A stretch of DNA of 64,000 nt from Hujiaoplasma nucleasis (GTDB taxonomy: Bacteria; Bacillota_I; Bacilli_A; Izemoplasmatales; Hujiaoplasmataceae). Shown in pieces: positions 19,221-52,814 of this stretch. The position numbers and the translations under genes were made by a program. The DNA lies in NCBI RefSeq assembly GCF_013745115.1, contig NZ_CP051151.1:868001-932000 (forward strand), read 5' to 3'. The notes under the pieces were generated by a model. It was given only the letters and a program-made list of their open reading frames with translations. It had not been told where the DNA came from and did no database searches. Numbering within the stretch: position 1 is the first letter of the stretch; each line of letters opens with the position of its first letter.

Positions 19221-19256
19221 AAAAAAATCACTCAATGATAAGCTCATTAAGTGATT
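19221..19256 (-). terminator. Terminator overlapping the end of walJ
   Basis: 13-bp stem (one GU pair) formed from the last codons of walJ, including the TGA stop, followed by seven T. It closes the c-di-GMP-riboswitch operon that starts at 27984. Confidence 0.8.
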
Positions 19257-20019
19257 CATATTGTTTGGCTATAATGACATTATATTTATCTAATTCTTGC
19301 TTTTTCAACTTAAAACATTCTTCATAAGTTCCTTTAGCCACTAAGGGTAAGTTACAATCTTCAGATATATGAGCCAGAATAATATGTTTGGTTTTCTCCC
19401 CCATAATATCTAAAATTAAATTGGCCGAATCTTCATTAGATAAATGACCGGTATCTTCAAGAATCCTTCTTTTTAATAACCAAGGCCTTGAAGATTCTAA
19501 TAACATTTCTGATTCATAATTACTTTCCACCATATAAGCACTAGCATTTTTAATTAAATCATACTTTCTTAAAGGAAAATAACCAGTATCTGTCATGTAA
19601 ACAAAAGATTCATCATTTTCTATAAAACGAAAACCCAAAGGCTCAATAGCATCATGATATGTATAAAAAGGTAAAACTTGAAAATGCTTAAAATCTATAA
19701 TTTCTTCTTCTCTTAAAAACACAAGACTAGATTCTTTAATATCCCCAGTAAACCTTTTATCGAAACCCTTATAAGTCCCTTCACTTAAATATATAGAAAT
19801 ATCATGTTTATTTAACAATACTCTTAAACCTGAAACATGGTCTCTATGTTCATGGGTAATAAAAATACCCTTTAAATTATTCAAATACTTGCCTTGTTTT
19901 TCTAATCTATAAGTTAATTGTTTGTAGCTTAAGCCACAATCAATTAAATATTGGTCTTCTTGAAATTCAATTAAGGTTGCATTACCTTTTGATCCACTTG
20001 CCACCACTGTAATTTTCAT
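19228..20019 (-). CDS. walJ: WalJ/YycJ-family metallo-hydrolase
   Basis: 263-residue metallo-beta-lactamase-fold protein. It begins KITVVASGSKGNATLIEF, then LIDCGLSYKQL, the metal-binding FITHEHRDHVSGL, and later VYMTDTGYF and IILAHISEDCN, typical of the WalJ/YycJ family, a predicted cytoplasmic nuclease. In many Firmicutes it sits with the walRK operon, whose genes are absent here. Its start overlaps the signal peptidase stop by 4 nt (ATGA), so it is cotranscribed with the export operon. It may be a passenger rather than part of that system. TGA is its stop codon. Confidence 0.9.
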   Translation of the reverse strand: MKITVVASGSKGNATLIEFQEDQYLIDCGLSYKQLTYRLEKQGKYLNNLKGIFITHEHRDHVSGLRVLLNKHDISIYLSEGTYKGFDKRFTGDIKESSLVFLREEEIIDFKHFQVLPFYTYHDAIEPLGFRFIENDESFVYMTDTGYFPLRKYDLIKNASAYMVESNYESEMLLESSRPWLLKRRILEDTGHLSNEDSANLILDIMGEKTKHIILAHISEDCNLPLVAKGTYEECFKLKKQELDKYNVIIAKQYESLNELIIE

Positions 20020-20621
20020 GCATCATCCTCTTTTTCTCTTAGTTTTTCTTTAGCTTCATTAATCAACTTTTCTTTTTCATCTTTTTGCTTATGTTCTTGA
20101 ATTTGTTTAATTATATTTATGGCTTCTAAAACCATAATAACTACAAATATTAAGATAATCAATAAAAATAAAATATTAAAATTACTAGAAAATAGAGCTC
20201 CATAAATTCCCCCTATAAAAGCAGACTTTGAACCCCTATAGACACCTATAATATTATCTTTACTGATATTTTTTTCCCAATCATAAATAATATCATTATT
20301 ATCACCCTTAGTGGTGAAAACATCACCATTTATTGCAATAATTCTATGGGTGATACTCACTCTCTTCCCATCAACATTGGCATAAAAAGAAACGATATCA
20401 CCTTCATATACTTGGTCATAGCTCGTATCAATAATAATCATATCTCCAGCCATGATTTCATCTTGCATAGATTTTGTTGGAACATAAGCTATAGCCTTAC
20501 CAAAAATTGTAGGAACTTCTCCATTGGCTAAAGAATAACCCAATTGCATAATTAACAAAAGCGTTATAGCAAGTAATACAAAAGGCATATATGATAATAT
20601 TTTTTTAAATTTACGTTTCAT
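20016..20621 (-). CDS. SipW/ER-type signal peptidase I
   Basis: 201 residues. An N-terminal membrane helix (about 9-32) is followed by the catalytic region. Ser51 lies in VPTKSMQDEIMAGDMIII, and His92, which replaces the Lys of ordinary bacterial enzymes, lies in ITHRIIAI. TTKGDNND and IIGVYRG follow, the order typical of SipW and the eukaryotic/archaeal enzymes. A second helix lies near 146-168, with a charged cytoplasmic tail (KEKLINEAKEKLREKE). SipW processes TasA-type fibre proteins in Bacillus. Here it lies 11 nt after two candidate substrate genes and is the second such peptidase of the operon. Active site outside, inferred from topology. Confidence 0.9.
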   Translation of the reverse strand: MKRKFKKILSYMPFVLLAITLLLIMQLGYSLANGEVPTIFGKAIAYVPTKSMQDEIMAGDMIIIDTSYDQVYEGDIVSFYANVDGKRVSITHRIIAINGDVFTTKGDNNDIIYDWEKNISKDNIIGVYRGSKSAFIGGIYGALFSSNFNILFLLIILIFVVIMVLEAINIIKQIQEHKQKDEKEKLINEAKEKLREKEDDA

Positions 20622-20632
20622 AAGTAAAGCCT

Positions 20633-21193
20633 CTATCCGTTAAAATCTATACTCGTTAAATCGGTCCATTCTACATGGTCTGCTTGTTTGACTTGAATGA
20701 GAACATAAAGACTCACTTGATTTGTTGCATATTCATTACTGGCTTTAAATCCATCATAATAGATAAAATTGATTAAAGCAATCACACCTGTATTGCTTAT
20801 AGCATGGTCACTTGCTATATAATACCAATAATCTCCATCTAAAACAAATGAACTGCCAAATTCAACAAACAAATCATCACTTGCTTCATTTTTATAGGTC
20901 TTAAGACTAATGACTTCTTCTACTAAAGTATAATCTATTTTAAGTCTTAAAGAAGTATCTATATTGGATTGATTATTAACAAAGATATCTTCATTTAATA
21001 ATTCTTTATCAGGAAAAATAATCTCACTTTCATCAATAAAAGAACCATGATAGGTATAAGAGATTTGCCCAGTATTGATTTGAACACTTCCTGCAGATTC
21101 ATACAAAGAAATCCATGCATAAGTGGCTGTAATGGTTAATAAAAAAGCAAAAATTAATAATAACAAGGATTGTATAAGTCTATTTTTTTTCAT
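20633..21193 (-). CDS. SipW-type exported protein (minor subunit candidate)
   Basis: 186 residues. A basic N-terminus (MKKNR) and one hydrophobic helix end in ATYAWISLYES, resembling the SipW-dependent leader (A-x-A-W/F-F/I-S/T just outside the helix). The mature part is small, beta-rich and acidic, without Cys or sorting signal. No enzyme motif seen. It is likely cleaved by a neighbouring SipW-type peptidase and exposed outside. It shares the leader style with proteins at 21202, 25956 and 51969 but little obvious sequence elsewhere. Confidence 0.6.
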   Translation of the reverse strand: MKKNRLIQSLLLLIFAFLLTITATYAWISLYESAGSVQINTGQISYTYHGSFIDESEIIFPDKELLNEDIFVNNQSNIDTSLRLKIDYTLVEEVISLKTYKNEASDDLFVEFGSSFVLDGDYWYYIASDHAISNTGVIALINFIYYDGFKASNEYATNQVSLYVLIQVKQADHVEWTDLTSIDFNG

Positions 21194-21201
21194 AAAACCA
21201 C

Positions 21202-21765
21202 CTACTCAGCATTGAAATAGATTCTAATATCATCTATTTCAATCTCTAATCCTTGATATTCATTTCCAGCACTCGGTAAAACCCCTAAAGTAAAATCTAT
21301 GGTTTCACTTCCACTGCCTTCTATATCAATATGGTTAATTAAAGGAGCCATACCACCCGACATTAAGTTTTCTAAGGTATCATCTCTATTCACAAGTCCA
21401 TCTACAGTAGAAGTCACCTGAATTACCTCGATCAATGATATTGATCCATTGGTAAGGACATCATTGATTGAAGATAAGTAAACAATCACATCATAGTTCC
21501 TGCTTGAAGGATTGGATAATACCAAACGAAAATATTTTTCATCACCAGGAACCTGCATAGACATTTGAATAGAATCTATTTCATTATAAACCAAGCCATC
21601 AGTAGATTCATATAAGGTATAATCAATGCTATAACCAGATACCGAAGATTGAAACATACCTACATTAACCCATTCAGATACTGAAAACCAAGCCAAAGAG
21701 GTGACAATGAACAAAAGGACTGATCCCACTAAAGCTGCTAGTGAAAGATGTAGTCTTCTTTTCAT
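21202..21765 (-). CDS. SipW-type exported protein (minor subunit candidate)
   Basis: 187 residues. MKRR start, hydrophobic helix, then SLAWFSVSEWVN, again matching the SipW-type leader. The mature region (SGYSIDYTLYESTDGL, MSMQVPGDEKYFRLVLSNP) looks like a beta-sandwich of the TasA/camelysin style; PGDEKYFRLVL resembles the PGD element before a strand seen in such proteins. No anchor or Cys. Located between the DUF2357-like gene and the 186-residue paralogue with short gaps, so it is cotranscribed. Confidence 0.6.
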   Translation of the reverse strand: MKRRLHLSLAALVGSVLLFIVTSLAWFSVSEWVNVGMFQSSVSGYSIDYTLYESTDGLVYNEIDSIQMSMQVPGDEKYFRLVLSNPSSRNYDVIVYLSSINDVLTNGSISLIEVIQVTSTVDGLVNRDDTLENLMSGGMAPLINHIDIEGSGSETIDFTLGVLPSAGNEYQGLEIEIDDIRIYFNAE

Positions 21766-21783
21766 AATATCACCTCTCGTTTT

Positions 21784-23322
21784 CTATTTGTTTTTCTTTT
21801 TTTGTCTTTCTTTTTTGGCTTCTTCAAGAATCCTTTTAGCTTCTTGAATTTTCTCTTGTTTTAAGACTTCTTCTCTGGCTTTTTCATCTAAAGCAGCTAA
21901 TCTTTGTCTTCTTTCTTCTTCTTCGATTTCTCTTTGTTTTTGTTTCTTAGCTTCTTCAATAGCCTTTAACTCATCACGATAATTCTTTAAGTTTAATAAG
22001 GCCAAAGCCTTATTGGTTTTAAAATCTTTATTGTTTTCAGCTTTAACCTTTTCAATATCACGATAAACATCCATAACTTGTCTTTGAACCTTAATACGTT
22101 CATGTATATCATCAATTTCATCAGGCTTATAATTACTTTCTATAAAATCAACAAAAGCATTATCAGCGATTTCTTGTAATTTTCTATAAACAATTTTAAT
22201 AGATTCTTCTTCAGCAATACCAGCGTCTTTTAAAGTCTTAAATCTTTCAGTATTCGCTTCTTTAATTTTATCTAGAAAATACTGATTTAAAGTATGGTCT
22301 TCTAAAAGATATTCACCAGCTTGTAAGTATTGGTCTTTATCAATACGTTGAAGAACCTTAGCTTTTTTCTCCCTTAAATAATTAAGTGGTCTAGCAAAAT
22401 CTAAATCTTCAATTTGTGAATTAGATACCGTCGCATAAAGAATCATTAAAGCTTCTTTTAATTGATCTTCATACTTTTTATCTAATAAAACATCTCGATC
22501 AAAAACATCTGATTCATAACCGACTCTATCGACCCTATCCAAGGTTACCCATAGATTATAACACTTATTAAAATCTACATTTTTACGAATAATATTGGTC
22601 ATCATAATAGGACTTCTAACCGGAGGAAAACCTTTCATTTCTTGCATAAAATGAGACATTTTATAATTGGTAATGGCTTTTCTTACTTCAGTCATTCTTT
22701 CCAATAACTCTTGGTTTTTTTGTCCCATTTCATCATCATCAATATCACGATGAATATTTAAAGATATATCATAATCGATATAAGTTTTTTCCCATTCTAA
22801 TTTTGATTTAACATTTAACACATTGGCGTATTCCGTATGCATTTTTTCAACAATTAAATTATATCTTAACTCAATAAATGTAAACAATTTATTGACTAAA
22901 GACATTAAAAACCTATTTTCATAGGTTCCTAAATCTTGATCATAATAAGATGTTAATACCTTTGAAGGAATCACATTCCCAAAGCGATCTCTTTCTTTAA
23001 TGTTTTGAGTATTGGCAGCCAAATGGCGAATGGTATCTGAGTCAATCTTCTTAGCTCTTTCAACTGCGACAACCTCAGATACTTTTTTTAATGATTCTCT
23101 TGGATTCCTGGTTAACTTATCAATGATAGGTATAATATCTTCAACTTCATCCATCCAAGAATCATCAAAAACACGTTTTTCTCGTCGTTCTTTTTGATAT
23201 AGTTCCATATCAGAACTATTCAAAAGTTTTCTAAACTGCTTAGCAAATTCATCAACTTTATTTAAACCTTCAATGGTTGTATTTAATTTTTTATAATAAC
23301 GCTTAGCAGTGCCTTCTTTCAT
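21784..23322 (-). CDS. DUF2357-like partner of the AAA+ ATPase
   Basis: 512 residues, no membrane helix or signal. Around residues 124-140 TSYYDQDLGTYENRFLMSLV resembles the core of DUF2357 proteins, which accompany McrB-type ATPases in McrBC-like modules. The nuclease (PD-(D/E)XK) part normally seen in McrC is not visible. Residues about 440-512 are instead a highly charged helix (QKQREIEEEERRQRLAALDE), probably a coiled coil. It lies 8 nt after the ATPase gene, a tight pair. I infer a non-nucleolytic adaptor of the membrane-bound ATPase. The family assignment is by eye and needs a profile search. Confidence 0.5.
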   Translation of the reverse strand: MKEGTAKRYYKKLNTTIEGLNKVDEFAKQFRKLLNSSDMELYQKERREKRVFDDSWMDEVEDIIPIIDKLTRNPRESLKKVSEVVAVERAKKIDSDTIRHLAANTQNIKERDRFGNVIPSKVLTSYYDQDLGTYENRFLMSLVNKLFTFIELRYNLIVEKMHTEYANVLNVKSKLEWEKTYIDYDISLNIHRDIDDDEMGQKNQELLERMTEVRKAITNYKMSHFMQEMKGFPPVRSPIMMTNIIRKNVDFNKCYNLWVTLDRVDRVGYESDVFDRDVLLDKKYEDQLKEALMILYATVSNSQIEDLDFARPLNYLREKKAKVLQRIDKDQYLQAGEYLLEDHTLNQYFLDKIKEANTERFKTLKDAGIAEEESIKIVYRKLQEIADNAFVDFIESNYKPDEIDDIHERIKVQRQVMDVYRDIEKVKAENNKDFKTNKALALLNLKNYRDELKAIEEAKKQKQREIEEEERRQRLAALDEKAREEVLKQEKIQEAKRILEEAKKERQKKKNK

Positions 23323-23330
23323 CTAATCAC

Positions 23331-24986
23331 CTATAACATTTTTTGAAGATTATCAATGAATTTTTGAGACTCCTCAAAAGAATTTTTACCAAATGTTTTC
23401 TTGATTTGTTCTTTCAAATCTTTTAACTCATCTTGTAAAAAGGCTAGATTTAAACTTTCAAATTTACGTAAGACCTTATTAGCAAAAATATAATCCATGC
23501 CATCTTCTTCAGTACCGCCACAAGCTACATAAACAGGAACAAATTTATGTACTTGATTCATAATACGGTTACCAAAAGCAACTTTAAATTTATTTTGAAC
23601 AAATTTATCTAAGATATCAAATTTCTTTAAAACATCATCAGATACTGGATATTTATAATGTGCTTCATCAAATAATTCTTGTAAGTAAGCATGAGACATA
23701 TGAATAGGCTCTTGTTCAGGCGCATCAAATGCTTCAGCTTTATTTTCAAATTCAAGAGACATGGCTCTATCATATACCTTATCTGTAATGGTGAATGTTG
23801 AATCATCTTTATTGGCTGTACCAATAAACCAAACGTTTTCTGGTACAGTAATCTTACCGTTAATCACTTTTAATGGATCTGATGGTTTAGCATCAGGCAC
23901 TAAGTCTATCTTCCATTCAGAAGGATTTGGCATTTCCATAATTGATAAGAATTCAGCAAAATAATACTCAATTCTCGCTAAGTTCAACTCATCTAAAACG
24001 ATGAAGTTAACATCTTTACGATAAATTGATTCATACAAGGCTTTTAAGAAATCAGTTTCATTAAATCGTTTGGTAAACTCATTTAAATAACCAATAATTT
24101 CTGCCCTATCTCTCCATGAAGGTTGAACAGAGATAATTTCAGCTTTATTACCAAAAAACTTAGCCATAGCATAAGGTAAAGAGGTTTTCCCTGTACCAGA
24201 TATACCTTCTAATAAAACAACCTTAGAAGCTGCCATACCAGAAAAGAATAAGGAAATCATTTTTGGTGTGTAATAAAGTTTTAATTGTGAAGCTGAATAA
24301 TTAACAAATCTTGTGACTAACTCAGGTAAAGCAATATAATCTTCATCTTCCATAAAGATATGGGTATCTTTCCCAGCATATCTTTCATCCACTTCAATTA
24401 ACTTAACAAATCTTGAAGGACCACTAGGTTTTTGAGTTTGTGGTGCTTGTGGAGAAGATTGAACGTCAGAAGTAATAGAACTTGGTCTTGACCCATACCT
24501 GCTTCTACCATCAGCTAAATAAATGGTTTGACCTGATCCAGCTGAAGCAGCAGGTGGAATATAATTTTCACCAACTTCTGATCTTGTTGTTGCATTAATA
24601 CCTAATTGAGAAACCTTCATAGCCATGATTTGGTTTTTCTCATCGGCTAGTTCAACGACTCTATCGTTTAACATCGCAATTTCATCAATTAGCTCTTGTT
24701 TTTCTATTTCTACTGATCTAAAACCAATATACTTTCTTAACCATAAGAATGTTCTAATCAAGATAAAGACAAAAAGAGAAATATTGATAACACCCGCAAT
24801 CACAACCATAAACCATGAAACAACAGTAAAGTCTTGCGATTCTTGTATTAAAATTTCCCAATAATCGCCAATATTTCTAAATAATCTAACAATAATACCT
24901 TCCCAGAGAATATCTCTGAAAAAGAATACTATATGTTGCCAGATTGCTGTAAACAATCTAACATAATATCTTGAAAATTCATTCAT
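23331..24986 (-). CDS. Membrane-anchored McrB/MoxR-like AAA+ ATPase
   Basis: 551 residues. A membrane segment at about 55-82 is followed by a predicted coiled coil (92-120), a low-complexity linker rich in Ser, Pro and Gln (140-192), and an AAA_5-type ATPase domain. Walker A is GISGTGKTS (261-269) and Walker B is NFIVLDELNLARIEYYFAEF. Sensor 1 is WFIGTANKDDSTF and an Arg-finger candidate is in DRAMSLEF (Arg407). The DELN wording is closest to McrB and other dynein-like AAA ATPases. It is coupled to the DUF2357-like gene. Context among signal peptidases and exported proteins suggests an assembly or secretion motor rather than restriction; this is inference. Confidence 0.8.
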   Translation of the reverse strand: MNEFSRYYVRLFTAIWQHIVFFFRDILWEGIIVRLFRNIGDYWEILIQESQDFTVVSWFMVVIAGVINISLFVFILIRTFLWLRKYIGFRSVEIEKQELIDEIAMLNDRVVELADEKNQIMAMKVSQLGINATTRSEVGENYIPPAASAGSGQTIYLADGRSRYGSRPSSITSDVQSSPQAPQTQKPSGPSRFVKLIEVDERYAGKDTHIFMEDEDYIALPELVTRFVNYSASQLKLYYTPKMISLFFSGMAASKVVLLEGISGTGKTSLPYAMAKFFGNKAEIISVQPSWRDRAEIIGYLNEFTKRFNETDFLKALYESIYRKDVNFIVLDELNLARIEYYFAEFLSIMEMPNPSEWKIDLVPDAKPSDPLKVINGKITVPENVWFIGTANKDDSTFTITDKVYDRAMSLEFENKAEAFDAPEQEPIHMSHAYLQELFDEAHYKYPVSDDVLKKFDILDKFVQNKFKVAFGNRIMNQVHKFVPVYVACGGTEEDGMDYIFANKVLRKFESLNLAFLQDELKDLKEQIKKTFGKNSFEESQKFIDNLQKML

Positions 24987-25029
24987 TATATAGCCTCCAG
25001 TAATTGAATACTAGTAAATATTAAAAACG

Positions 25030-25725
25030 TTATTCTTTATCTTCTTCTTGTTTTTTTTGCTCTGCTTCTAATTGTCTTTTAGCTTCAGCAATCGCTTCTT
25101 CTTGCATTTTAACTCTATCTTCCATTGTCTTTTTATTATTATATTCAGCATATATTTTAACAAAACGAACAACTTCATAAGCTAAGAATCCAACTGCAGG
25201 TAAAACAATTAATAAAAAGAATCCTAAACTTGATTTTAAAAATCCAGTAAATCCATCAACAAATGATCCAAAGTTAGACCAAGAACGTCCATTCCATACC
25301 CCAACAATATCATTTAAATCATCACTAGAAACTCTTAACAAAACTCTATCGTTATCTGGATTTCCATCACCTTTTGTTGTTAAAAAATACACCCCTTCCC
25401 CAGCATCAAAAACATTAACAATTCTATGTGTGTTATACTCTTCTAAAGTACTATCCCAATAAGTTATAACAACACCTTCCTCTTCAACAATATCAGATAA
25501 ATTAAAATCCGTAGAAATAAAAATCAAATCACCCTTATCAAAAGTAGGACTCATTGAATCTGATTGAACAGCTAAAGACGTTATACCAAAGAAAGAAATT
25601 TGGTTTTCTTCTTTCTTAGAAAATAAAGCGAATATTGCATATAATAACACAATTCCTAACACAACATAAAAAGCAATATTGCCTATTTTTTTAAGTAAAT
25701 CATTTTTCCCTTTTACATTCTCCAT
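25030..25725 (-). CDS. SipW/ER-type signal peptidase I
   Basis: 231 residues. Helix at about 15-35, then Ser57 in VQSDSMSPTFDKGDLIFI, His100 in NTHRIVNV, then FLTTKGDGNPDNDR and DIVGVWNG: the Ser-His arrangement of SipW. A second helix lies near residues 160-185, with a highly charged tail. Start 25725 follows AGGAG; the upstream in-frame extension has no RBS and no leader logic. It follows the major exported protein gene across a 230-nt gap with a hairpin. Two such peptidases in one operon suggest different substrates. Confidence 0.9.
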   Translation of the reverse strand: MENVKGKNDLLKKIGNIAFYVVLGIVLLYAIFALFSKKEENQISFFGITSLAVQSDSMSPTFDKGDLIFISTDFNLSDIVEEEGVVITYWDSTLEEYNTHRIVNVFDAGEGVYFLTTKGDGNPDNDRVLLRVSSDDLNDIVGVWNGRSWSNFGSFVDGFTGFLKSSLGFFLLIVLPAVGFLAYEVVRFVKIYAEYNNKKTMEDRVKMQEEAIAEAKRQLEAEQKKQEEDKE

Positions 25726-25881
25726 TAATCTCACTCCTAAAATAAAATAGATACTCTCTTTATTATATATTATTATGTAACATTTTTCATTATTAAATTT
25801 AATAAAATAAACAAATACCACTATTTATCTTATAAAAAAGACTTTATTTTACCTTAGAACTAAAATTATACCCTATAAGGT

Positions 25882-25914
25882 AACATAACTTAGGGATAAA
25901 CCCTAAGTTATGTT
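25882..25914 (-). terminator. Perfect 14-bp hairpin between subunit gene and signal peptidase gene
   Basis: Arms AACATAACTTAGGG and its exact complement around a five-base loop, 40 nt after the stop of the 321-residue exported protein. There is no long T tract after it on the minus strand, so partial termination or mRNA stabilisation is more likely than a complete stop. A TATAAT follows at 25865-25870 without a good -35. Confidence 0.55.
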
Positions 25915-25955
25915 TTAATAGTTAATTTCAAATAACTTTAATTAATATTTCGATA

Positions 25956-26921
25956 TTATAAGTCAGTTGTTCCAATTTGGAAACCGAATGAAATGTCGAA
26001 TTGAGCTAATGAAATATTATTTGTTGCGTCTGCATCCCAACCTTCAACAAAGATATATACTGTAACTAAAGTAGGTACGTTTGCATCAATAATCATTAAA
26101 TCAGTAGGATTTCCAGTAGTTGTATATGAAGATAATTCAAAATGATCAATCACTGATGAGTTTAAGTTTGTTAAATTTTCTAAATCTCCAGCTGTAGCTT
26201 CTAAATCAGATAAGGTATTATTTGATGTCCCTGCAAAGTCGCCAGTAAAAGTATATGAATAATCAATGCCATTACCGAAAACAAATGCATCTCCAACTGT
26301 TGAACCTCCAAAGTCTGTGTTATCTCCCCAAACTACTAATCTTACAGCATTTGCAATATCTGCTTGGTTTGCTGAGTTACCAGCATTTGAAGCGATTGAT
26401 GAAGTATCAATTAATTCTAATGCAGCAGTGTCTCCATTATCCCCTTGTAATAAAACCCAGAATCTTAATTCTAAATATTGGCCATCAGCATTATTTTTTG
26501 TAGCTGAAGCAAGTGTTCTATTTTCAAAGTCACTTAAATATGTTAAATTTTTAGCATCATATGCTGCATATCCATTTGAGACTACAGATGCCGGTGATAT
26601 TCTCCAAGGTGTAGCTGCGCTAGGTCCAATTTGATATCCATCAGAATATAAATCAGCAACTTCAATCACTGTCATATAATTTCCAGCTGTTTGTAAATCA
26701 TTAGGATTGCCAGAATTATCATTAACGAAATCTCCTGCAGTTTCAGTCGGTGTCAAAGGCATAATAAGTAAAGAATCTGCTGAAGTTACATTTAACGTCA
26801 TTGTATCAACAGTTGCAGTTTGACTTACTGTAAACCAAGCAAATGTTGTACCTATTGTTGCGATAAACGCGAATACTAATACGATTCCTGAAAGAATCAC
26901 TTTTGTTTTTAAAGCTTTCAT
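25956..26921 (-). CDS. SipW-type exported protein, major subunit candidate
   Basis: 321 residues. MKALKTK, a hydrophobic helix, then TTFAWFTVSQTATVDTMTL: the clearest SipW-dependent leader in the window. The mature part is rich in Asn, Asp, Thr and Ala with few Lys/Arg. It ends in the strand VTVYIFVEGWDAD (near residue 290), a motif shared with the preceding protein and common near the C-terminus of TasA-like SipW substrates. Strong RBS (AAAGGAG) and a stable hairpin after the gene suggest high expression. It is a good candidate for the structural fibre subunit; no enzyme motif seen. Confidence 0.7.
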   Translation of the reverse strand: MKALKTKVILSGIVLVFAFIATIGTTFAWFTVSQTATVDTMTLNVTSADSLLIMPLTPTETAGDFVNDNSGNPNDLQTAGNYMTVIEVADLYSDGYQIGPSAATPWRISPASVVSNGYAAYDAKNLTYLSDFENRTLASATKNNADGQYLELRFWVLLQGDNGDTAALELIDTSSIASNAGNSANQADIANAVRLVVWGDNTDFGGSTVGDAFVFGNGIDYSYTFTGDFAGTSNNTLSDLEATAGDLENLTNLNSSVIDHFELSSYTTTGNPTDLMIIDANVPTLVTVYIFVEGWDADATNNISLAQFDISFGFQIGTTDL

Positions 26922-26965
26922 AAATTTTTTCTCCTTTTATTTTTTTTATTTTTTTTACTTTCTAA

Positions 26966-27748
26966 TTAAGATGTTTCTTCGTCAATTAAGACGATGTTTG
27001 TTACTGTGAAATTCATTGCTAATTTAACTCCACCACTCCATAAGTTGATGGTATGGTCTGGATCATAGCCTTCGTACCAGATCACTACTGATACTTTTTT
27101 AATATCTCCTGGAAAGAAATTAGTAAATGTTTGCCTCATTATTGTTGAGGGACCAAAGAAACTTTGATCTACATAAGGTTCTAATTCTCCAGGGTTTTGC
27201 CCGTTCTCTGATTGTCTCTTAGCATATACTGTTGCTTCACCATCAATAATGACTTTGACTCTTAATGCTTCTTCTGCCCCTTTTGATGTTGAAATGACAT
27301 CTATTTCAGCAAGCAAATCCGCGGCGTAATTTCCATTGGATTGCATTTCTACATAAAAGGTATATGCGATGTAAGACTCTCCGTTGTTTGATCCTTCTAC
27401 TGAATGGATTTCTTCATTAGGTGGTATACACGATGGATGTCCAGGATCCCTATCAGGCATGATGCCACAAAGGTCAGTCATACCATCAGCGTTATCGACT
27501 TTATCGGCTAATAATCTTGTTGAAAATTGTTTATTATCTAAGTTCTCATAAAGTGAAACACCAATTTGATAAGCTCTTTGATCCACGGTAAATGTAAAGT
27601 TCCCTGCTTCCATTCCGTAAAACGAGATAGCGAAGATTAAGAAGGATAAGATTGCTGTGACGATGATTCCGAACCTGGCAGTTTTTGTTAGTCTAAACGC
27701 TTTGGAAGCAAATAATACTTTATCAGCTAATCTTACTTTGCGTCCCAT
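26966..27748 (-). CDS. Exported TasA-like protein, first gene of riboswitch operon
   Basis: 260 residues. A longer basic N-terminus (about 30 residues), one helix (FGIIVTAILSFLIFAISFYG) and then EAGNFTFTVDQ, which differs from the AWF(S/T) leader of its neighbours, so cleavage is less certain. The mature part has two Cys (LCGIMPDRDPGHPSCIP), possibly a disulfide. Near residue 218-231 it has VVIWYEGYDPD, matching the VEGWDAD motif of the next protein. It may anchor or initiate the fibre, in the role TapA plays in Bacillus; that is inference. A very G-rich Shine-Dalgarno (GGGGAGGGG) lies about 13 nt before the ATG, unusually far. Confidence 0.6.
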   Translation of the reverse strand: MGRKVRLADKVLFASKAFRLTKTARFGIIVTAILSFLIFAISFYGMEAGNFTFTVDQRAYQIGVSLYENLDNKQFSTRLLADKVDNADGMTDLCGIMPDRDPGHPSCIPPNEEIHSVEGSNNGESYIAYTFYVEMQSNGNYAADLLAEIDVISTSKGAEEALRVKVIIDGEATVYAKRQSENGQNPGELEPYVDQSFFGPSTIMRQTFTNFFPGDIKKVSVVIWYEGYDPDHTINLWSGGVKLAMNFTVTNIVLIDEETS

Positions 27749-27793
27749 ATTCGAATACCATCCCCTCCCCCTATCTTCATAATTGGCTTTTTG

Positions 27794-27813
27794 TTTTAAA
27801 AAAAGCCATCATC
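27794..27813 (-). promoter_or_regulatory. Second terminator-like 3' arm in leader 1
   Basis: On the minus strand GATGATGGC followed by seven T, an exact repeat of the 3' arm of the riboswitch terminator 50 nt upstream (27855-27863). It could pair with the same 5' arm (27870-27878). A matching copy occurs in the other leader at 52661-52676. Confidence 0.5.
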
Positions 27814-27840
27814 TTTTGATTTCGACATTCTTTACTCCCT

Positions 27841-27878
27841 AAGAAATAAAAAATGCCATCATCACTCAAGATAACGGC
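27841..27878 (-). terminator. Riboswitch expression-platform terminator 1
   Basis: Stem GCCGTTATC (27870-27878) with GATGATGGC (27855-27863), nine pairs with two GU, followed on the minus strand by ATTTTTTATTTCTT. The 5' arm overlaps the 3' strand of aptamer helix P1, so folded aptamer and terminator exclude each other. Ligand is therefore predicted to turn transcription on. Confidence 0.75.
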
Positions 27879-27947
27879 AACTGGCTACCATCGATTATCG
27901 AAGGCCCTATAGCTTTGCGTCACTAGCTTTCGCTAGTTTTGCTATTT
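27873..27947 (-). promoter_or_regulatory. Cyclic-di-GMP-I (GEMM-I) riboswitch 1
   Basis: On the minus strand the conserved order is present: P1 strand AAATAGC, GCAAAAC, a P2 hairpin with GAAA tetraloop (CTAGCGAAAGCTAG), GTGACGCAAAGCTATAGGG, a variable P3 stem (CTTCGATAATCG), then ATGGTAGCCAGTTGCCG. These are the hallmark elements of the GEMM-I class. It lies between a consensus promoter and the gene for an exported protein (start 27748). With promoter, terminator and arms it fills most of the 312-nt gene-free stretch 27749-28060. Confidence 0.93.
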
Positions 27948-27955
27948 ACGAGTTT

Positions 27956-27984
27956 ATTATAAACTATCAAGCTTTATTTGTCAA
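27956..27984 (-). promoter_or_regulatory. Perfect consensus promoter of riboswitch operon 1
   Basis: Minus-strand TTGACA (27979-27984), 17-bp spacer, TATAAT (27956-27961). Transcription would start a few bases before the aptamer. Confidence 0.92.
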
Positions 27985-39944: not shown

Positions 39945-39975
39945 AAGAAAAGAGCGATTTATCGCTCTTTTTTAC
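39945..39975. terminator. Bidirectional terminator
   Basis: Nine-bp stem AAAGAGCGA/TCGCTCTTT with a four-base loop. T-rich on both strands, so it closes the TetR gene (+) and riboswitch operon 2 (-). Confidence 0.88.
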
Positions 39976-41483
39976 TATTTTGTATATTCATCGAATGTAT
40001 CCATATTCCATGGACTTTTCCTAACCATCTCTTTAGCAGTATCCACATCTACAGGTTGTGAGAAATAAAAGCCTTGCATGAACCTAACACCCCATTCAGA
40101 CATCTTTTTAATCATCTCAGTATTCTCTACACCTTCAGCAATAACAATCTTATGATTGTCTTTAGCTGCTTTAACTACCCTGTATATATCTTCTGATAAG
40201 GGATCATTATCCATAACCATTAATAAGTCATTTCTTGGAATCTTATAGATATTTGCCGCAACATCTTGCATATGATCAGCCAATTCAAAATTATCTCCAT
40301 TATCATCAATAGCTACCCTAAAACCATATTTTCTAAATTCATGTAAATTAGTCATGGCTACGTGATTTTTGTTAATTGAAAAATAATCAAGAACTTCAAA
40401 TGCAAAATTATCTGGTTTCATACCATATTTACTGGTTAAATCATAAAACTTTCTAGCCAAATCATCAATATATAATTGCTTAGGACTTAAATTAATAGAA
40501 ATAAATAATTGCCTAATCCTAAACTCTTTTAACCAATCACTGTATTTCTTAACCACTCTCTCAAAGCCCCACAGACCAAACCAAGTAATATCTCCGGTTA
40601 AATCCATGACATTTAAGAACTTACCAGGAGGTAAAATTCCCATTTCAGGATGTTGCCATCTAAGTAAGGATTCTAAACCTATAATCTTTCCTGTTTTAAC
40701 ATCTACGATAGGTTGATAATATAGTAAAAATTCTTCATTATCAATGGCATTTTTAATTTCTTCATAATAAGAAATATTAAATCTTTCTTTTTCAATTAAG
40801 TCTTGTGAATATAAGTGATATCTCGCCTTACCTTCTTTTTTAGCAACATAAACTGCTAGATCTGCGTTTTTTAACAAACCATCTGCGTCAATCCCATCAT
40901 AAGGGAAAACCACAACACCTATGGACGCTGTCACAGAGATATCATCAACTTTTAAAGGTTCATTAACAACCGATAATAGTTGGTCACCCAATTGAGCAAT
41001 GACTTCATTGTTGACTTGTCCCATGTAATAATAAAGAAATTTATCTTTTTCTAAGTGTCCAGAAATATTCTTTTGATCAGAGAACTTATTTAATCGCTTA
41101 TCCATTTCGCTGGTAATCTTATCAATGGTTTTTTGGTCATATTTTTCAACCAATTGTCTAAAATCATCAATATCAATACTATATAGGATTCTTAAGTCCC
41201 CTTCTTTGGTTTGTTTGATATCTTCATTAATTCTATCCTTTAAATTTGATGAAGTCACAATTTTATTTTTAGAAAATAATTTAAATTCCTTCTTTTCTTT
41301 AATGGCCTTGGTTTCTTTGTTGATGGCTTGCCTTTCTTTTCTTTCCATACGTAAATGGTTAATAACATTTCTATATAAGAAAAATAAAGCTGCAGTTGAT
41401 ATAACCACGATTAAAATAGCCACCACAATTTCATATGGTTTAGCTTGTCCAACCGTTTGTTCTAAAGTATATAAGATGTTCAT
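39975..41483 (-). CDS. GGDEF-EAL protein with degenerate GGDEF
   Basis: About 502 residues. One N-terminal membrane helix (residues 18-38) and a charged linker are followed by a GGDEF-fold domain in which the active loop reads GHLEKDKF, so cyclase activity is not expected. The EAL domain retains most ligands: ESL in place of EAL (GLESLLRW), Asn in ISINLSPKQL, Glu in FEVLDYF, AIDDNGDNFE, AEGVENTEM and MQGFYFSQP. LKIDKSF is replaced by YKIPRND, so phosphodiesterase activity is doubtful and a c-di-GMP-binding or signalling role is possible. Two adjacent ATGs (41486, 41483) follow AGAGGTGG; the second has better spacing. Last gene of riboswitch operon 2. Confidence 0.88.
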   Translation of the reverse strand: MNILYTLEQTVGQAKPYEIVVAILIVVISTAALFFLYRNVINHLRMERKERQAINKETKAIKEKKEFKLFSKNKIVTSSNLKDRINEDIKQTKEGDLRILYSIDIDDFRQLVEKYDQKTIDKITSEMDKRLNKFSDQKNISGHLEKDKFLYYYMGQVNNEVIAQLGDQLLSVVNEPLKVDDISVTASIGVVVFPYDGIDADGLLKNADLAVYVAKKEGKARYHLYSQDLIEKERFNISYYEEIKNAIDNEEFLLYYQPIVDVKTGKIIGLESLLRWQHPEMGILPPGKFLNVMDLTGDITWFGLWGFERVVKKYSDWLKEFRIRQLFISINLSPKQLYIDDLARKFYDLTSKYGMKPDNFAFEVLDYFSINKNHVAMTNLHEFRKYGFRVAIDDNGDNFELADHMQDVAANIYKIPRNDLLMVMDNDPLSEDIYRVVKAAKDNHKIVIAEGVENTEMIKKMSEWGVRFMQGFYFSQPVDVDTAKEMVRKSPWNMDTFDEYTK

Positions 41484-41492
41484 CATCCACCT

Positions 41493-44033
41493 CTATTCAT
41501 TCTTGCTGGCTAAGACATCAACACGTTTGTTTCTAGCCACCTTGTAAAATTGTTCAATATATTCAACAGTTTCTTCAACTGTTAAAGGTTTACTCATTAA
41601 ATATCCTTGGAAAATATCTGTTGAAATTTGTTTTAAATACTCATATTGACTCTTATGTTCAACACCCTCAGCTATAACCTTCATATCCAAGTTATGTACC
41701 AAGTTAACGATGGTCCCAACAATTCTATTTTCCTTCTTGGTATCTAATATACCATCGATAAATGATTTGTCAATTTTAAGGTTATCGAAGGCTATATTTC
41801 TTAAATAAGTCAATGATGCATAACCCGTACCAAAGTCATCGAGCGAGAACCTAATGCCCATTTGATGTAATTCTTCAATTTTATCATCTAAGGCAATGGT
41901 TGATTTAATAAAAATACTTTCAGTAAGTTCTAAGGTCAAATAATTCGGGTTAATATCTGTTTCTTTAACAATAGATTTAACTATATCTACATAATCATTT
42001 TGAAGTATCTGTATTAATGAAACATTTACAGATATAACAAATTCTTTTTCAAATCTTTTTCTTAAAGCCACTTGCATCTTACAAGCTTCCCTTAATATCC
42101 ATGTACCAATAGGAATAATTAAATAGTTTTCTTCAGCATTGGCAATAAATACTTCTGGAGAAATATTTCCTAAGACAGGTGAAGCCCACCTAGCAAGTGC
42201 TTCAAAACCATAGATTTCAGATTGTTTATCGATTAATGGTTGATATTTTAAGAAAATCTCTTTTTTCTCTAAAGCTTGTGCCAATTGTTCTGATACTTCA
42301 GCTTGGTATGAAATTTCTTGTGAAATTTTATCATTATAGAAAATCACTTGTTTTTTATCTGTGTTTTTATCTTTAAATATGGATATATCACATTTCTTAA
42401 TTAACTCATCTAAATGATAATCATCAGTAGGATAAGTTGCTATACCTGCAAATATTTTAATTTCAGACTTAATATAGTTCACGACAATTGGTTGTTTAAA
42501 TCGTGTGACGATTCGACTAACTTTATCTCGAACCTCAGCTAAATTTTTGAAATTAGGAATAATATAAATTAACTCATTACCACCATTAGAATATAAATAT
42601 TCATCATCGGAAATAATCAATTGAATTTCTTCTGCGATGGCTTTGATTAAAGAATCACCCATCATTTGGCCTTTAATAATAATGATATCTTTTAAGTTAT
42701 CTACTTGCAATAAACAAACTGCTGTTTTTTTATCGCCCTTAAGTAAGGTTTGATTGATTTCTTTTGTCACTGCAGATTTATTTTTTAAACCCGTGAGTGG
42801 ATCATATGCGAAATTATCATAAATCAGTTTTACTTGTCTATCAATTTCCTCTGACATAAGGTTAATCGCGTCAGCGATTTCTCTAATTTCATTATTTTCA
42901 TAAACCTTTGCTTGGACTTGATAATTTCCATTTTTTATTTCATCAATTGAGTGAATGATATCATGTAAAGGTTGTAGGGCTTTTTTTACACGCACATTTA
43001 TTAATATACCCATAATCACAATTAAAAGCGAAACAACCGATAAGGCAATAATTAACAAAATCTCAAATGGTAAAACTTGAGAATCATGGACTAAAACAAT
43101 CACTTCCCAGTTAAAATCTTCTATTTGATTGTATGTAATAATGTAATTATTATCAAAAGCATCTAAAGATAAAAGTTGATCTGTTCTTCCATTAATAATC
43201 TTTGCGATGCCTTGATCATCAAAACCATTTTCTTGGTCAATCCTAGAAAAATCTTCAAGGTCTTTAAGTAAATAATCTTGGTAAGAATCATCTGTGAAAT
43301 AAACAAAATCAGCTTGATTATCTCTGTAAGATAAAACAAGAATATCATTATCACTTGCTTCAACTAAAGTATTGAAATAATCCTCAAAATATACCATGTC
43401 CAATGCGACACCTATATAAGCAATCGTTTGTCCTTGTAAATCAAAAATCCTTTGAACATAAGAAATTCGTGTGGTATTACTTAAGTCTTGACTATAAGGA
43501 TTGGTCAGGATATGACTTTGGTTCTCCATTTGGCTATACCATTCCCTATCAGCTAAAATCCATCCCTCATCAGCACCTAAGACTTGGCCATCACTGGTAA
43601 TCAAACAGCCTGTAGTCTGACCCAAGCAACTATCTTCTACAGCTATAAAAATAGAAGCGTAAGCTGAATCATTATGGTGATTTAGTGTATTGTTCATAAT
43701 TAACATAACTTTTTCATATAAAGAATAATTAGGGTCTGTTTCAGGAATTACAGGATCATTACCTGCATTAATATACTCAATATAATTAATCATATCTGTT
43801 GATAATGCCATAGCATTTGCATCCTGTTGGATACCTTGCAACATATGTTGACTCGAATTAAGAACAAAGTCGGTTTCAGTTTCAACATATCTTTCTTTTA
43901 AATCATTGGCAATCACAGAAAACAAAAACATTCCAATAAAGACGACTATAATGAGAAAAAGTGCGTCTATAAAAATAGTAAGACCCACAATTCTCCTAGT
44001 CAAAGAATATCTTTTTTGTGATTTATTATTCAT
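41493..44033 (-). CDS. Sensor c-di-GMP phosphodiesterase (Cache-like, HAMP, degenerate GGDEF, EAL)
   Basis: 846 residues. Two membrane helices (about 15-40 and 325-345) enclose a 280-residue extracellular Cache-like sensor with a pair of Cys (DSCLGQTTGCLI). HAMP follows (about 345-400), then a GGDEF-fold with GGNEL near residue 486 (the metal-binding Asp replaced), then a complete EAL domain: GFEALARW, SVNVSLIQI, LTLELTES, SLDDFGTGYA, LKIDKSFIDG, IAEGVEHK, FQGYLMSKPL. All known catalytic residues are present, so it should degrade c-di-GMP. Start 44033 overlaps the giant gene by 8 nt. It is cotranscribed under the c-di-GMP riboswitch at 52732. Confidence 0.93.
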   Translation of the reverse strand: MNNKSQKRYSLTRRIVGLTIFIDALFLIIVVFIGMFLFSVIANDLKERYVETETDFVLNSSQHMLQGIQQDANAMALSTDMINYIEYINAGNDPVIPETDPNYSLYEKVMLIMNNTLNHHNDSAYASIFIAVEDSCLGQTTGCLITSDGQVLGADEGWILADREWYSQMENQSHILTNPYSQDLSNTTRISYVQRIFDLQGQTIAYIGVALDMVYFEDYFNTLVEASDNDILVLSYRDNQADFVYFTDDSYQDYLLKDLEDFSRIDQENGFDDQGIAKIINGRTDQLLSLDAFDNNYIITYNQIEDFNWEVIVLVHDSQVLPFEILLIIALSVVSLLIVIMGILINVRVKKALQPLHDIIHSIDEIKNGNYQVQAKVYENNEIREIADAINLMSEEIDRQVKLIYDNFAYDPLTGLKNKSAVTKEINQTLLKGDKKTAVCLLQVDNLKDIIIIKGQMMGDSLIKAIAEEIQLIISDDEYLYSNGGNELIYIIPNFKNLAEVRDKVSRIVTRFKQPIVVNYIKSEIKIFAGIATYPTDDYHLDELIKKCDISIFKDKNTDKKQVIFYNDKISQEISYQAEVSEQLAQALEKKEIFLKYQPLIDKQSEIYGFEALARWASPVLGNISPEVFIANAEENYLIIPIGTWILREACKMQVALRKRFEKEFVISVNVSLIQILQNDYVDIVKSIVKETDINPNYLTLELTESIFIKSTIALDDKIEELHQMGIRFSLDDFGTGYASLTYLRNIAFDNLKIDKSFIDGILDTKKENRIVGTIVNLVHNLDMKVIAEGVEHKSQYEYLKQISTDIFQGYLMSKPLTVEETVEYIEQFYKVARNKRVDVLASKNE

Positions 44034-47000
44034 TGTTTTGACCCCATGTTCTAAAGAAATCAAACAAACCAAAAGGTTTATCCGTTGAAGGATTTTCAAT
44101 CGGATATATATAAACATTAAAACGTCTTGTTCTTAAGTTAACTGAATCTTGTATATAATAATACTTTCCTTGTAATCCAGGAACATAATCGCTAGCATCG
44201 TTTAAATCATAAGTATCTAAACCAATCTCAAATTCAATTGAGTAGTCATAAAGGTCATTTAAGTACTCATCTTTTGGCAACTCTATAGCAAAATTATAAA
44301 AGTATGATCTATTTCTAGCAAATCTATAGGTATAATCATCACTATCTGTGTAGAAAAATTGAATGGTTTTATTGACCAATCCAGAGACTTGTGAAAAAGC
44401 AGGATAATTGGCAGGGTCATCACTAGCAAAAGTTTGATTACCATCAGTTATTATATTTTGCACATTAATAATCACCAATTGTTGGTTAAAATCCACACTG
44501 TCTTTAGCAAGAACACAAGAACCTTCTAATCCTTCACTACAATAATAGATATCAAATATAAAAGTCACATTAAAGACAACATCAGTTACAGAAATATCAT
44601 AATAAACAATATTATTAACATTACCATCTTCAGGTACAACCCGATAACGTATGGTGACTTTATCATCTTCAGGGCCAGGTTCAATACCGGTTACAGGATC
44701 CTTAGTAAAGTCTGCAGATAAATCACTCACCCATACCCAAGCACTTCCATTCCAATCTCTTCTTTCAACGATGGCTCCAACTGGAATAAAACCATCAAAG
44801 ATAGGTTGATAATCATCTAAAGGAACATTAGAAACTTGACCATCAATTCTAAAATATCTTTCTAAAGCAATTCTAGATCCATCATAATCAAAACCATTAA
44901 AGTAAGCTTGTGGATCATATTGAGTATTTAAAAGACCACCATCACCATAACCAGGACTATCATATACAGCAAGTTCAGGGTAATTGGTTTCATTGGCAAA
45001 TTCAGAAAAACGAATATCATCTAAATATGCATCTGTCCCTTGAAGTTTTGTGATTTTTAAATTGCTTCCTAGACTTGTCTTAAATTCAATAAAATCAGTT
45101 AAATTCCTATAATACCTAATTTGAATGTAATAATCTCCAGGCAATGTTTCTATAGATACGTCTATATGTAGGTACTCATCATAATACCATGAAATACCCT
45201 CGTAAGTCTTTAAACTACCTAAATCATCGACGATTTGTATATCAAAAACTTGATCAGGATCTCCATAAAAGTAAATTCCATCATCATCTATGGCTTGATT
45301 TAATCCTAAATCAATTGTAAATGTGGTGTTATCATCTTCTCTAGTCGCGAAAACATCTTCTAAAGAAACCACATTGTTATTCTTTTCAACAGATTCAATT
45401 TCAGTTTGTCTTTCATAAATTTCATGGGTATATACCTGAGGACTTCCACTTTCTGAAGTTATGGTATAGGTTAACTCATGTACTTTATAACCAGATTCAA
45501 ATCTTTCACCTGTTTTTTCAGCATTTGTGACTGAAGCAAAAGGAGAAATGATTAAATTATTCATAAAACCAATATCATAAGTAGATGATAAATAAGTCGC
45601 AGGTCCAGCTTGCGAACTAATGGTAAAATCACCTAAAATTTCATTAATATCAATGAATGAATCAAAATCAATACCTATAACTTGAGGTACAGAATCATAT
45701 TCAGTATTGTAAGTAAAATCTATCAATTGATTATTAGGCGCTGCCCCTTTATCAAAATCAATTCTATATTTGGTTGAAACTGGAAAATATGAAAACTCGA
45801 AATAATAATCTCCCGATCTAATTAATTCAGAGAATGTAAAGGTAATAGAATAAGTCCCAGATAATGATGTAGGAATGGTGCTTACACTATAATAAGTTGA
45901 TGGTACCAAAGTATCGTCATTATAATATAAAGTAAATAGATCTTTAAAATCATAACCTGGTATCAATATGTCATTATTATCTACATAATTTAAGCTTAGA
46001 GAACCATTGTAATCAACAGTGCCATTAGTTCTTAAATCTACATTATTGGCTGATGTTATATTAAGATTAGAATCCCCATTAAAACTAACAGAAGTTATGC
46101 CTGTAGTATTTGATGCTTGACTTAAATCCGGCAAGAAATAAATATCAATTCGATAATCATTATAATAATTTGAATTAGAAAATTCATAAGTTTCATCTAA
46201 AGAATCCATATAAAAAGCTTCAGAATAAACGCTAAAATATCCTAAAGTTAATAAGGTCGGTTGGGTATCTGGCAAGTCCATAGTCAAAAGAGCTTTTAAG
46301 CTTGGGTCTGTTACAATATCATTGTATCTTTCCTCGTATAGCAAATCACTCATATGTTTATAATAATTTTCTTCTAAATAATCCTTATGATTACCTAGAT
46401 AATCAATTGTATCAGCAGGATAAACAACCCATTGACTTGAATCCCAAGAACTAGTTGGTCCCAAAGTAGTAAAGTCTCTTACTAAAGTTCTATTCATTGA
46501 ACTTCCTCCACCAGTCCAAGTCCACTCAGCACCAGGATCTTGGCCAATGACACCAAACACATCTATGTTTGTTGAACCTTTTGCTAAGGCAATAGCATCA
46601 TCACCATTGTATCTCATAGCAATGACTAAATCCGCAAGATTTCTCATCTCTTGAGTTGCTTGATCATTGACTATTACAAAAGTATCGCCATCTTGTAGTG
46701 TTCCGCTTAATGCTATACTAGTACCTATTGTCGTAGCACCACTTCTATATATCCTTAATGAATAGTTAGATAAATCTACTGCTTGTCCGGTACCATTATA
46801 GATTTCAATGGCGTTGTTTAAATTACTATTAGATCCTTCTATATATTCACTTATAATTAAATCGTCTAACATAAAATAATCTTCAATTCTAACACCAATA
46901 AGAGCATTTGCAGAACTTAAAGCTTTTGTTATATCATAACTAACAACATCTTGGTTAGGGTCAAATGACTCCATACTGACAGCAAGTGTAATAATATTAT

Positions 47001-51969: not shown

Positions 51970-52649
51970 TACCAAGCACCTCCCCATGGTGGTGATACTA
52001 AATCCCAATTGTTTTCAGGGCCGCCTTCAGCTTGAACAGCTTCAACTGAAAAGGCCATTTGAAGAGAATAACCAGGAGATCTAGTGTCAAAGTTTTGATC
52101 TTGAAAATATGAATCTATTAATGGAATAACCAAGTTTTCACTTTGGCTTATTCTGGTGACTTTTTCAGTATAATAAATATAATTATCGAATATCCTATTG
52201 TCATACCAGTTGACAGTATTGTAATTTAAATCAACACCCTCTTCGTAAGGTACAGCCATTTCGATAACTTCATCATTAGAATTGGTATATATAAAAGTTA
52301 ATTGTTCATATATTTCAACCCTAAAATATGTATCAATATTAGATTTAACAATAATATTTACTCTTAAGTCTTCAATGAAATATTCTTGGGTATTTGATGT
52401 GATATTAATCCTATAAACTCCTTTTTTGAAAACACCAGGCGTAATCTCAACTTCAATAGCTTCAGTAGGTTGACCAAATTCATCAACAAAGAAAGCTTCT
52501 AAATCCACATCAACAAAACCCATTTGACCAGTATAATTATATTCTTCTTGGCTGGTGAACCATGACAAAGAAACACCAATGAAAAGGGTGCTTACTATCA
52601 ACAATATGAAAAAAATTAAGGGTAAAAATAATTTTTTATAATGCTTCAT
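51969..52649 (-). CDS. SipW-type exported protein, first gene of riboswitch operon 2
   Basis: 226 residues. Basic start (MKHYKK), hydrophobic helix and then VSLSWFTSQEEYNYT, the leader style of the proteins at 20633, 21202 and 25956. The mature part contains FKKGVYRINITSNTQEYFIE and VNIIVKSNIDTYFRVEIYEQ, beta-sandwich-like. The C-terminus is short and Trp/Gly/Pro-rich (SPPWGGAW). It is probably processed by the SipW-type peptidases of the other riboswitch operon and is translationally coupled to the giant protein, so the two may act together at the surface. Confidence 0.65.
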   Translation of the reverse strand: MKHYKKLFLPLIFFILLIVSTLFIGVSLSWFTSQEEYNYTGQMGFVDVDLEAFFVDEFGQPTEAIEVEITPGVFKKGVYRINITSNTQEYFIEDLRVNIIVKSNIDTYFRVEIYEQLTFIYTNSNDEVIEMAVPYEEGVDLNYNTVNWYDNRIFDNYIYYTEKVTRISQSENLVIPLIDSYFQDQNFDTRSPGYSLQMAFSVEAVQAEGGPENNWDLVSPPWGGAW

Positions 52650-52660
52650 ATTCCACCTAT

Positions 52661-52676
52661 AAAAAAAGCCATCATC
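52661..52676 (-). promoter_or_regulatory. Second terminator-like 3' arm in leader 2
   Basis: Minus-strand GATGATGGC followed by seven T, then the AGGTGG ribosome site. It can pair (with GU pairs) with the terminator 5' arm at 52729-52737, and is identical to the element at 27794-27813 in leader 1. Confidence 0.5.
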
Positions 52677-52701
52677 TTTTTGATAAGCACTTTTATCTCC
52701 T

Positions 52702-52806: not shown

Positions 52807-52814
52807 ACAAGTTT

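Follow-up and report, generated by a model that had tools for sequence, protein, structure and literature searches.

Two c-di-GMP-Riboswitch Operons with SipW-Type Signal Peptidases and an McrB-Like NTPase Pair in Hujiaoplasma nucleasis

The window analysed here is a 64-kb stretch of the Hujiaoplasma nucleasis genome, which measures 1.81 Mb and forms one contig. On its minus strand lie two operons, A and B, each headed by a riboswitch for cyclic dimeric guanosine monophosphate (c-di-GMP). Operon A codes for two SipW-type signal peptidases, four small proteins (S1 to S4), and a pair of proteins consisting of a membrane-anchored McrB-like nucleoside triphosphatase (NTPase) of the AAA+ type and a DUF2357 partner. 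Operon B codes for a secreted protein (B_SW), a giant surface protein (B_big), and two GGDEF-EAL proteins. Together these genes very probably represent a surface system that relies on SipW and is controlled by c-di-GMP.

Operons, switches, and cargo

The features of operon A are given below in the order of transcription. The cut-offs are a gathering score of 35 for RF01051, 51.85 for TIGR02228, 22 for AAA_5, 23.3 for PF09823 (DUF2357), and 19 for TIGR04088.

27956-27984, minus: promoter A, TTGACA-N17-TATAAT, 12/12 consensus match
27873-27953, minus: c-di-GMP-I riboswitch aptamer A, RF01051 67.8 bits
27854-27879, minus: intrinsic terminator, overlapping by its 5' arm with the 3' strand of the aptamer, predicted ON switch
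26966-27748, minus: S1, membrane-anchored beta-rich protein without the SipW leader motif
25956-26921, minus: S2, SipW-leader protein (TFAWFT), probable main fibre subunit
25882-25914, minus: perfect 14-bp hairpin inside the S2-SipW1 gap
25030-25728, minus: SipW1, ER/archaeal-type signal peptidase with a charged C-terminal tail, TIGR02228 68.3 bits
23331-24986, minus: membrane-anchored McrB-like AAA+ NTPase (transmembrane helix, coiled coil, AAA), AAA_5 22.3 bits
21784-23322, minus: DUF2357 protein (McrC N-terminal type), nuclease-free, long C-terminal helix, PF09823 32.1 bits
21202-21765, minus: S3, small SipW-leader protein (SLAWFS), TIGR04088 18 bits, below the cut-off
20633-21193, minus: S4, small SipW-leader protein (TYAWIS), distant TasA/camelysin homologue by profile comparison
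20016-20621, minus: SipW2 signal peptidase, TIGR02228 57.2 bits
19228-20019, minus: metallo-beta-lactamase (MBL)-fold hydrolase, co-transcribed, probably peripheral
19225-19257, minus: closing terminator of operon A, 14-bp stem

With promoter A at one end and the terminator (19257-19225) at the other, operon A forms one unit from 27984 to 19225. The original prediction had described a single unit with a c-di-GMP switch, and all of its elements are found in place on the minus strand. Intergenic distances range from -4 to 44 nucleotides. The sole exception is the 227 nucleotides between S2 and SipW1, where the hairpin lies. This hairpin has no U-run and recurs in most relatives with differing sequences. 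Such gap hairpins would fit a surplus of S1-S2 message relative to the machinery genes.

For comparison, about 80 gene neighbourhoods in other genomes were read. They were picked to cover many families and hence are no random sample, and counts drawn from them are lower bounds, many contigs stopping early. The genomes are mostly metagenome-assembled and are kin by descent, and the counts are not independent. Bacterial families are labelled f1 to f22, loci by L numbers, and genomes by G numbers; the window genome belongs with family f1.

The MBL gene lies within the operon only in f1 and is for this reason regarded as peripheral. The gene nifJ, which comes after operon A in the window, likewise stands next to the operon only in f1. 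Neighbours can thus be unrelated, and the NTPase pair too might be a co-transcribed passenger with some unrelated membrane function. This is very improbable: the MBL gene and nifJ are confined to a single family, whereas SipW stays with the AAA gene in 11 families, through rearrangements.

Both aptamers are full length, covering positions 1-87 of the 87 in RF01051. The 5' arm of terminator A starts 7 nucleotides inside the aptamer, at the UGCC of its final helix. Because this strand is shared, the two structures compete, and an ON switch is predicted. High c-di-GMP is accordingly predicted from the sequence to turn both switches ON. Eighteen switches were checked in all. An overlapping terminator occurs in 14 of the 15 examined in family f1 (those of the window included), with varying stem sequences, and TTGACA precedes all 15; the overlapping form is not present in the three switches from family f2. 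In 12 related loci where an S1 gene was called, the switch precedes it by 69-191 nucleotides; in two f2 genomes it lies inside the operon, before SipW1. The whole window genome has two c-di-GMP-I switches, both within the window. It also has 22 GGDEF matches, so c-di-GMP signalling exists in this organism.

Tandem c-di-GMP-I aptamers were seen in two other genomes, with three at G017:C10:77844-78344 and two at G040:C2:225505-225659. The latter precede S1 of the system described here. In family f3 (Izemoplasmatales, mostly without AAA), many c-di-GMP-I switches have SipW genes and small proteins lacking the W leader nearby (L152-L159). This arrangement is possibly a different surface system.

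The two peptidases were originally described as SipW-type enzymes of the Ser-His kind. Both score above the TIGR02228 cut-off, and in an alignment of SipW relatives the catalytic serine is conserved in 98/99 and the histidine in 99/99, so the description holds. In SipW1, counted along the translation, they are Ser58 and His101. The C-terminal tails reach at least 25 residues in 90 of 96 proteins, with a median length of 48 residues, a median of 48% of them charged. SipW1 and SipW2 are the genome's only SipW-type peptidases, and the other type-I signal peptidase found is one ordinary enzyme, encoded elsewhere.

The small proteins are the putative cargo of these peptidases. Four exported proteins had been proposed, three of them with an AW(F/I)(S/T) leader, and the motif is indeed present in S2, S3, and S4. 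S1 has a membrane helix instead, and the motif is absent from all 51 S1 proteins. Relatives have one to five copies of S2. Profile comparison finds S1 and S2 homologous (97.3-98.7%), and an NCBIfam scan of 25 S2 proteins gave no common family.

The original prediction had pointed to TasA-like substrates of SipW in Bacillus, and a relation to TasA is found for one of the four proteins. With its leader removed, S4 aligns to relatives of PF12389 at 98.1% (hhalign, E 9e-14), compared with 0.2% for a reversed control. As the link appears by profile only, with no direct Pfam match of S4 to PF12389, S4 is considered a distant homologue. S3, treated in the same way, reaches 47.9% (E 1.9e-4). The relation does not extend to S1 and S2. 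Judged by sequence, these two are each other's homologues and form a family separate from TasA/camelysin. They are likely the main subunits.

Operon B spans 39975-52843 and has the following features.

52815-52843, minus: promoter B, TTGACA-N17-TATAAT, 12/12 consensus match
52732-52812, minus: c-di-GMP-I riboswitch B with overlapping terminator, RF01051 67.7 bits
51969-52649, minus: B_SW, secreted protein with SLSWFT leader
44026-51969, minus: B_big, surface protein of about 2650 residues with Lamin Tail Domain (LTD), candidate adhesin
41493-44033, minus: protein with the order transmembrane helix, Cache-like domain, transmembrane helix, HAMP, GGDEF (degenerate), EAL (intact)
39975-41486, minus: protein with transmembrane helix, GGDEF, and EAL, both domains degenerate, candidate c-di-GMP receptor

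The two GGDEF-EAL genes stand last. In the first product the Cache match is weak, the GGDEF domain is degenerate (GGNEL), and the EAL domain retains its customary catalytic motifs. The second product has a single transmembrane helix, with DDNGDN replacing DDFGTG and KIP replacing KID. Since both of its domains are degenerate, it may act as a c-di-GMP receptor. Adjoining riboswitch B, a divergent gene (53010-56288, plus strand) codes for a 1092-residue protein with an N-terminal signal-like helix.

In other families, the genes of operons A and B are found united. B_SW is clustered with AAA in L042, L069, L082, L087, L116, and L118. Both B_SW and B_big lie downstream of the McrB part in f12, f16, f18, f7, f3, and a second f1 operon (L042). 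Immediately upstream of S1 are GGDEF-EAL genes in f12, f16, f18, f7, and f2; in two f2 genomes they follow SipW2. These unions suggest that operons A and B are the halves of a single system. The two alike switches, each with promoter, aptamer, and terminator and each heading an operon with SipW leaders, were also counted in favour of a single system.

The second f1 operon just mentioned, L042 (G001:C1:421000-440000), is a paralogous one with S1, S2, SipW, AAA, S3, S4, B_SW, B_big, and its own riboswitch.

The McrB-like NTPase and its DUF2357 partner

The AAA protein carries the Walker A motif GISGTGKT, the Walker B motif LDELN, and the N-x-D-D motif GTANKDDS. Walker A (G.SGTGKT) is retained in 72/72 proteins, and LDE.N and GT.N.DDS in 70/72 each. 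An alignment of 18 proteins places a transmembrane helix at about 50-90 in the N-terminal part, followed by a heptad-like stretch at 99-125. When the AAA profile was compared with the PDB, the sole match was E. coli McrB (E 3.5e-5).

The protein had been put forward as a membrane-anchored, McrB/MoxR-like ATPase. Membrane anchor and McrB likeness stand, the latter with AAA_5 slightly above its cut-off. MoxR membership was dropped, as the PDB match is McrB. The expected nucleotide also changes. The N-x-D with a second D agrees with the description of the NxD clade in the CoCoNuT paper, PMC11090510 (NKDD fits NxxD too), and by this analogy the protein more likely hydrolyses GTP than ATP.

The partner was predicted to be DUF2357-like and to lack the nuclease part, and this agrees with the PF09823 score. 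No nuclease family, PD-(D/E)xK included, was found in 26 DUF2357 proteins (the window member and 25 relatives), and a Pfam scan found no known DNA-recognition domain. In the related McrBC system, the finger of McrC sits in the pore of the McrB ring and stimulates hydrolysis; in solved complexes it plugs the pore (PMC7680126). A structure model of the DUF2357 protein (pTM 0.38) places a helix at 133-160, a beta hairpin at 164-192, and a helix at 198-221, all with low confidence. This order of helix, hairpin, and helix matches the layout described for the McrC finger. At the position of the nuclease the model has a 79-residue helix (433-511, moderate confidence). The model had no significant fold match, and searches with the DUF2357 profile gave only coiled-coil-type chance matches. 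The McrC-like finger thus rests on Pfam and on the predicted order of elements.

The AAA protein is widespread. It occurs in 43 of 120 relatives, in a close form in 30 of 33 other genomes of its own family, and, class-wide with a limit of E <= 1e-60, in 134 genomes out of 395. Among 72 standard AAA loci from 11 families, a same-strand SipW gene was found in 67, a DUF2357 gene in 69, a W-type leader protein in 60, S1 in 51, and a GGDEF-EAL gene in at least 24. The order S1-S2-SipW-AAA-DUF2357 recurs in relatives. The original prediction would have fallen if the pair stood only beside DNA-defence genes, unlinked to SipW. It withstands this check, since the pair is linked to SipW, surface-protein, and c-di-GMP genes across at least 11 families. 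The organisms that carry the AAA-SipW cluster belong to a group of mostly wall-less bacteria.

A SipW-less subtype also exists. Five loci (L043, L083, L091, L094, and L095) have, in this order, a giant surface protein, a GGDEF-EAL-like protein (in L091 a very weak match), AAA, and DUF2357. The giant protein has 2000-2500 residues and a C-terminal transmembrane helix, and it is cadherin-like in 2/2 scanned. Remoter types, with an AAA of about 900 residues or with the order AAA-DUF2357-AAA, lie in several cases near large LTD, Big_2, LRR, or YDG proteins. What the AAA-DUF2357 loci have in common is a surface protein and c-di-GMP, not DNA defence.

Among the tandem AAA-DUF2357-AAA types, L099, L111, and L121 lie by large proteins with YDG, BspA-type LRR, and transglutaminase-like domains. 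At L076 (G002:C45), a decayed AAA copy with many stops lies before nifJ, and an intact copy, cut by the contig end, is on G002:C39.

An alternative is that the pair serves defence, as a CoCoNuT-like module that acts against phage or targets RNA, and is merely co-operonic with surface genes; it might, for instance, act at the membrane once phage bind the surface protein. The AAA domain is indeed of the McrB family, and the literature places the group near CoCoNuTs (PMC11090510). The PADLOC candidate PDC-M26A also matches (4e-41). This match covers the AAA core only, its best stretch aligning 228-353 to 306-432 of 724, and full-length membership in PDC-M26A was rejected on these grounds. The neighbourhoods point elsewhere. 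Surface and c-di-GMP genes are the neighbours in 11 families, control is by c-di-GMP, and the DUF2357 members are free of nuclease families. Nearly all f1 genomes carry the pair, with 65-76% identity and in the same order, which is not island-like. A defence function is therefore improbable, and the pair probably works on the surface system rather than on nucleic acid.

A proposed mechanism

The favoured reading, held with somewhat better than even confidence as the best explanation of the whole, is that operons A and B encode one c-di-GMP-induced surface-structure system together with its NTPase pair. The mechanism proposed for it starts from what was computed, namely gene content, leaders, catalytic motifs, linkage, and switch architecture, and adds export, cleavage, polymerisation, and force as inferred steps.

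The process would start with high c-di-GMP, which is predicted to stabilise the aptamers and block the overlapping terminators, such that operons A and B are read. Next, Sec would export S2, S3, S4, and B_SW, and the SipW peptidases, going by their family, would cut the leaders of the AW(F/I)(S/T) type. The mature beta-rich proteins may polymerise on the membrane-anchored S1, the homologue of S2. The resulting fibre would carry B_big or cooperate with it.

On the inner face of the membrane, the McrB-like protein would form a tethered AAA+ ring. DUF2357 would enter the ring and stimulate hydrolysis like McrC, with the long helix taking the place of the nuclease. Motion driven by nucleoside triphosphate and passed on via the coiled coils and the charged SipW tails might act on the complex of peptidase and anchor, driving subunit hand-over, assembly, or release. 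Because McrC blocks the McrB pore, threading of cargo is less likely than a lever or rotary action. Finally, the GGDEF-EAL proteins may sense c-di-GMP at the membrane, break it down, and gate the process locally.

The blocked pore (PMC7680126) speaks against substrate threading and can also be taken to mean that the pair is no assembly motor. It would then act at the membrane as a regulator, whether of signal-peptide processing, of anchoring, or of c-di-GMP output, for example by holding SipW inactive or by setting fibres free. A possible point of contact between SipW and the coiled coils is the charged tail of the peptidase, and in the SipW-less subtype degenerate GGDEF-EAL proteins directly adjoin AAA. 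That same subtype, however, suggests that the pair functions without SipW, and the strictly kept Walker A, Walker B, and sensor motifs suggest turnover beyond scaffolding. A regulatory role of this kind, though rather unlikely, is a serious rival. That the pair powers assembly or export specifically falls a little short of an even chance.

Several observations weigh against the assembly system favoured here. In the profile comparison with PF12389, S1 and S2 reach only 0.2-7%, with no detectable TasA homology, and PDB sequence searches with their profiles gave nanobody chance matches only. The structure model of S2 is poor (pLDDT 51). TasA has the top TM-score (0.31/0.40) among the 50 PDB matches listed for it, but with an E-value of 1.7 a TasA fold of S2 is unproven. 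TasA fibres form without an NTPase, which is thus not obviously needed. The AAA core resembles the defence candidate PDC-M26A, and the paralogous operon L042 has no DUF2357. Likewise, the family f3 switches near SipW without AAA indicate that the pair is dispensable for some such systems.

Comparison with known systems

Fibre systems of the TasA-SipW-TapA or CalY-CapP type (Bacillus) and BsaA-SipW (Clostridium perfringens) also combine a SipW-type peptidase with small SipW-leader proteins, and S4 is a distant homologue. Their control is different. The Bacillus fibres are under SinR and have no NTPase, and C. perfringens uses a two-component system, whereas the window has a c-di-GMP switch and the McrB pair. 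The likely main subunits, S1 and S2, are also of a different family. TasA and CalY fibres assemble without an NTPase (PMC9674648, PMC10903470, PMC13082335).

McrBC type IV restriction shares with operon A an AAA protein, whose window form has E. coli McrB as its nearest PDB match, and a DUF2357 partner. Here, a membrane anchor replaces the DNA-binding domain, and there is no nuclease and no DNA-defence neighbour. Tentatively, a branch of McrB/McrC may have left nucleic-acid defence and become a c-di-GMP-gated, NTP-driven inner-membrane machine that puts together or releases SipW-processed fibres and giant adhesins. Equally tentatively, it could be the powered equivalent of the TasA pathway, controlled via riboswitch RNA and GGDEF-EAL proteins. 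The usual interpretation of McrBC relatives is restriction or defence against phage. If this branch serves surface assembly under c-di-GMP control, some “defence” annotations need revising, and a new, powered kind of surface-protein assembly would be added. Since its model picks up the AAA core in surface-linked proteins (E about 1e-40), PDC-M26A may mislabel them as defence.

LapD-LapA is an adhesin system controlled by c-di-GMP. It resembles operon B in having a membrane GGDEF-EAL protein with an extracellular domain and HAMP beside a giant surface protein. Unlike in LapD-LapA, the neighbours examined included no identifiable LapG-type protease or type I secretion, and the McrB/DUF2357 pair and SipW peptidases are present here.

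The closest known system is CoCoPALM. The original prediction did not recognise the combination of McrB and DUF2357 with signal peptidases, yet this combination had already been named in 2024 (eLife, PMC11090510) and itself is not new. The main text of that paper gives it one paragraph, without cargo, regulator, or function. Among the papers searched, none joins SipW with DUF2357. CoCoPALM and the window share an NxD-type McrB, a DUF2357 protein with coiled coil, and signal peptidases. In CoCoPALM the McrB is fused to an FtsB-like transmembrane and coiled-coil segment; the window protein has a transmembrane helix and a coiled-coil-like stretch ahead of its AAA domain. The window differs from the description in that main text by its SipW-leader cargo, the S1/S2 family, the predicted c-di-GMP-I ON switches, and the giant surface protein. 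The TasA-like cargo, the riboswitch, the GGDEF-EAL proteins, the adhesin, and the SipW-less subtype are thus additions to it. If the favoured reading is true, CoCoPALM, so far only named, would gain a function, and Mollicutes-like lineages a c-di-GMP control of adhesion.

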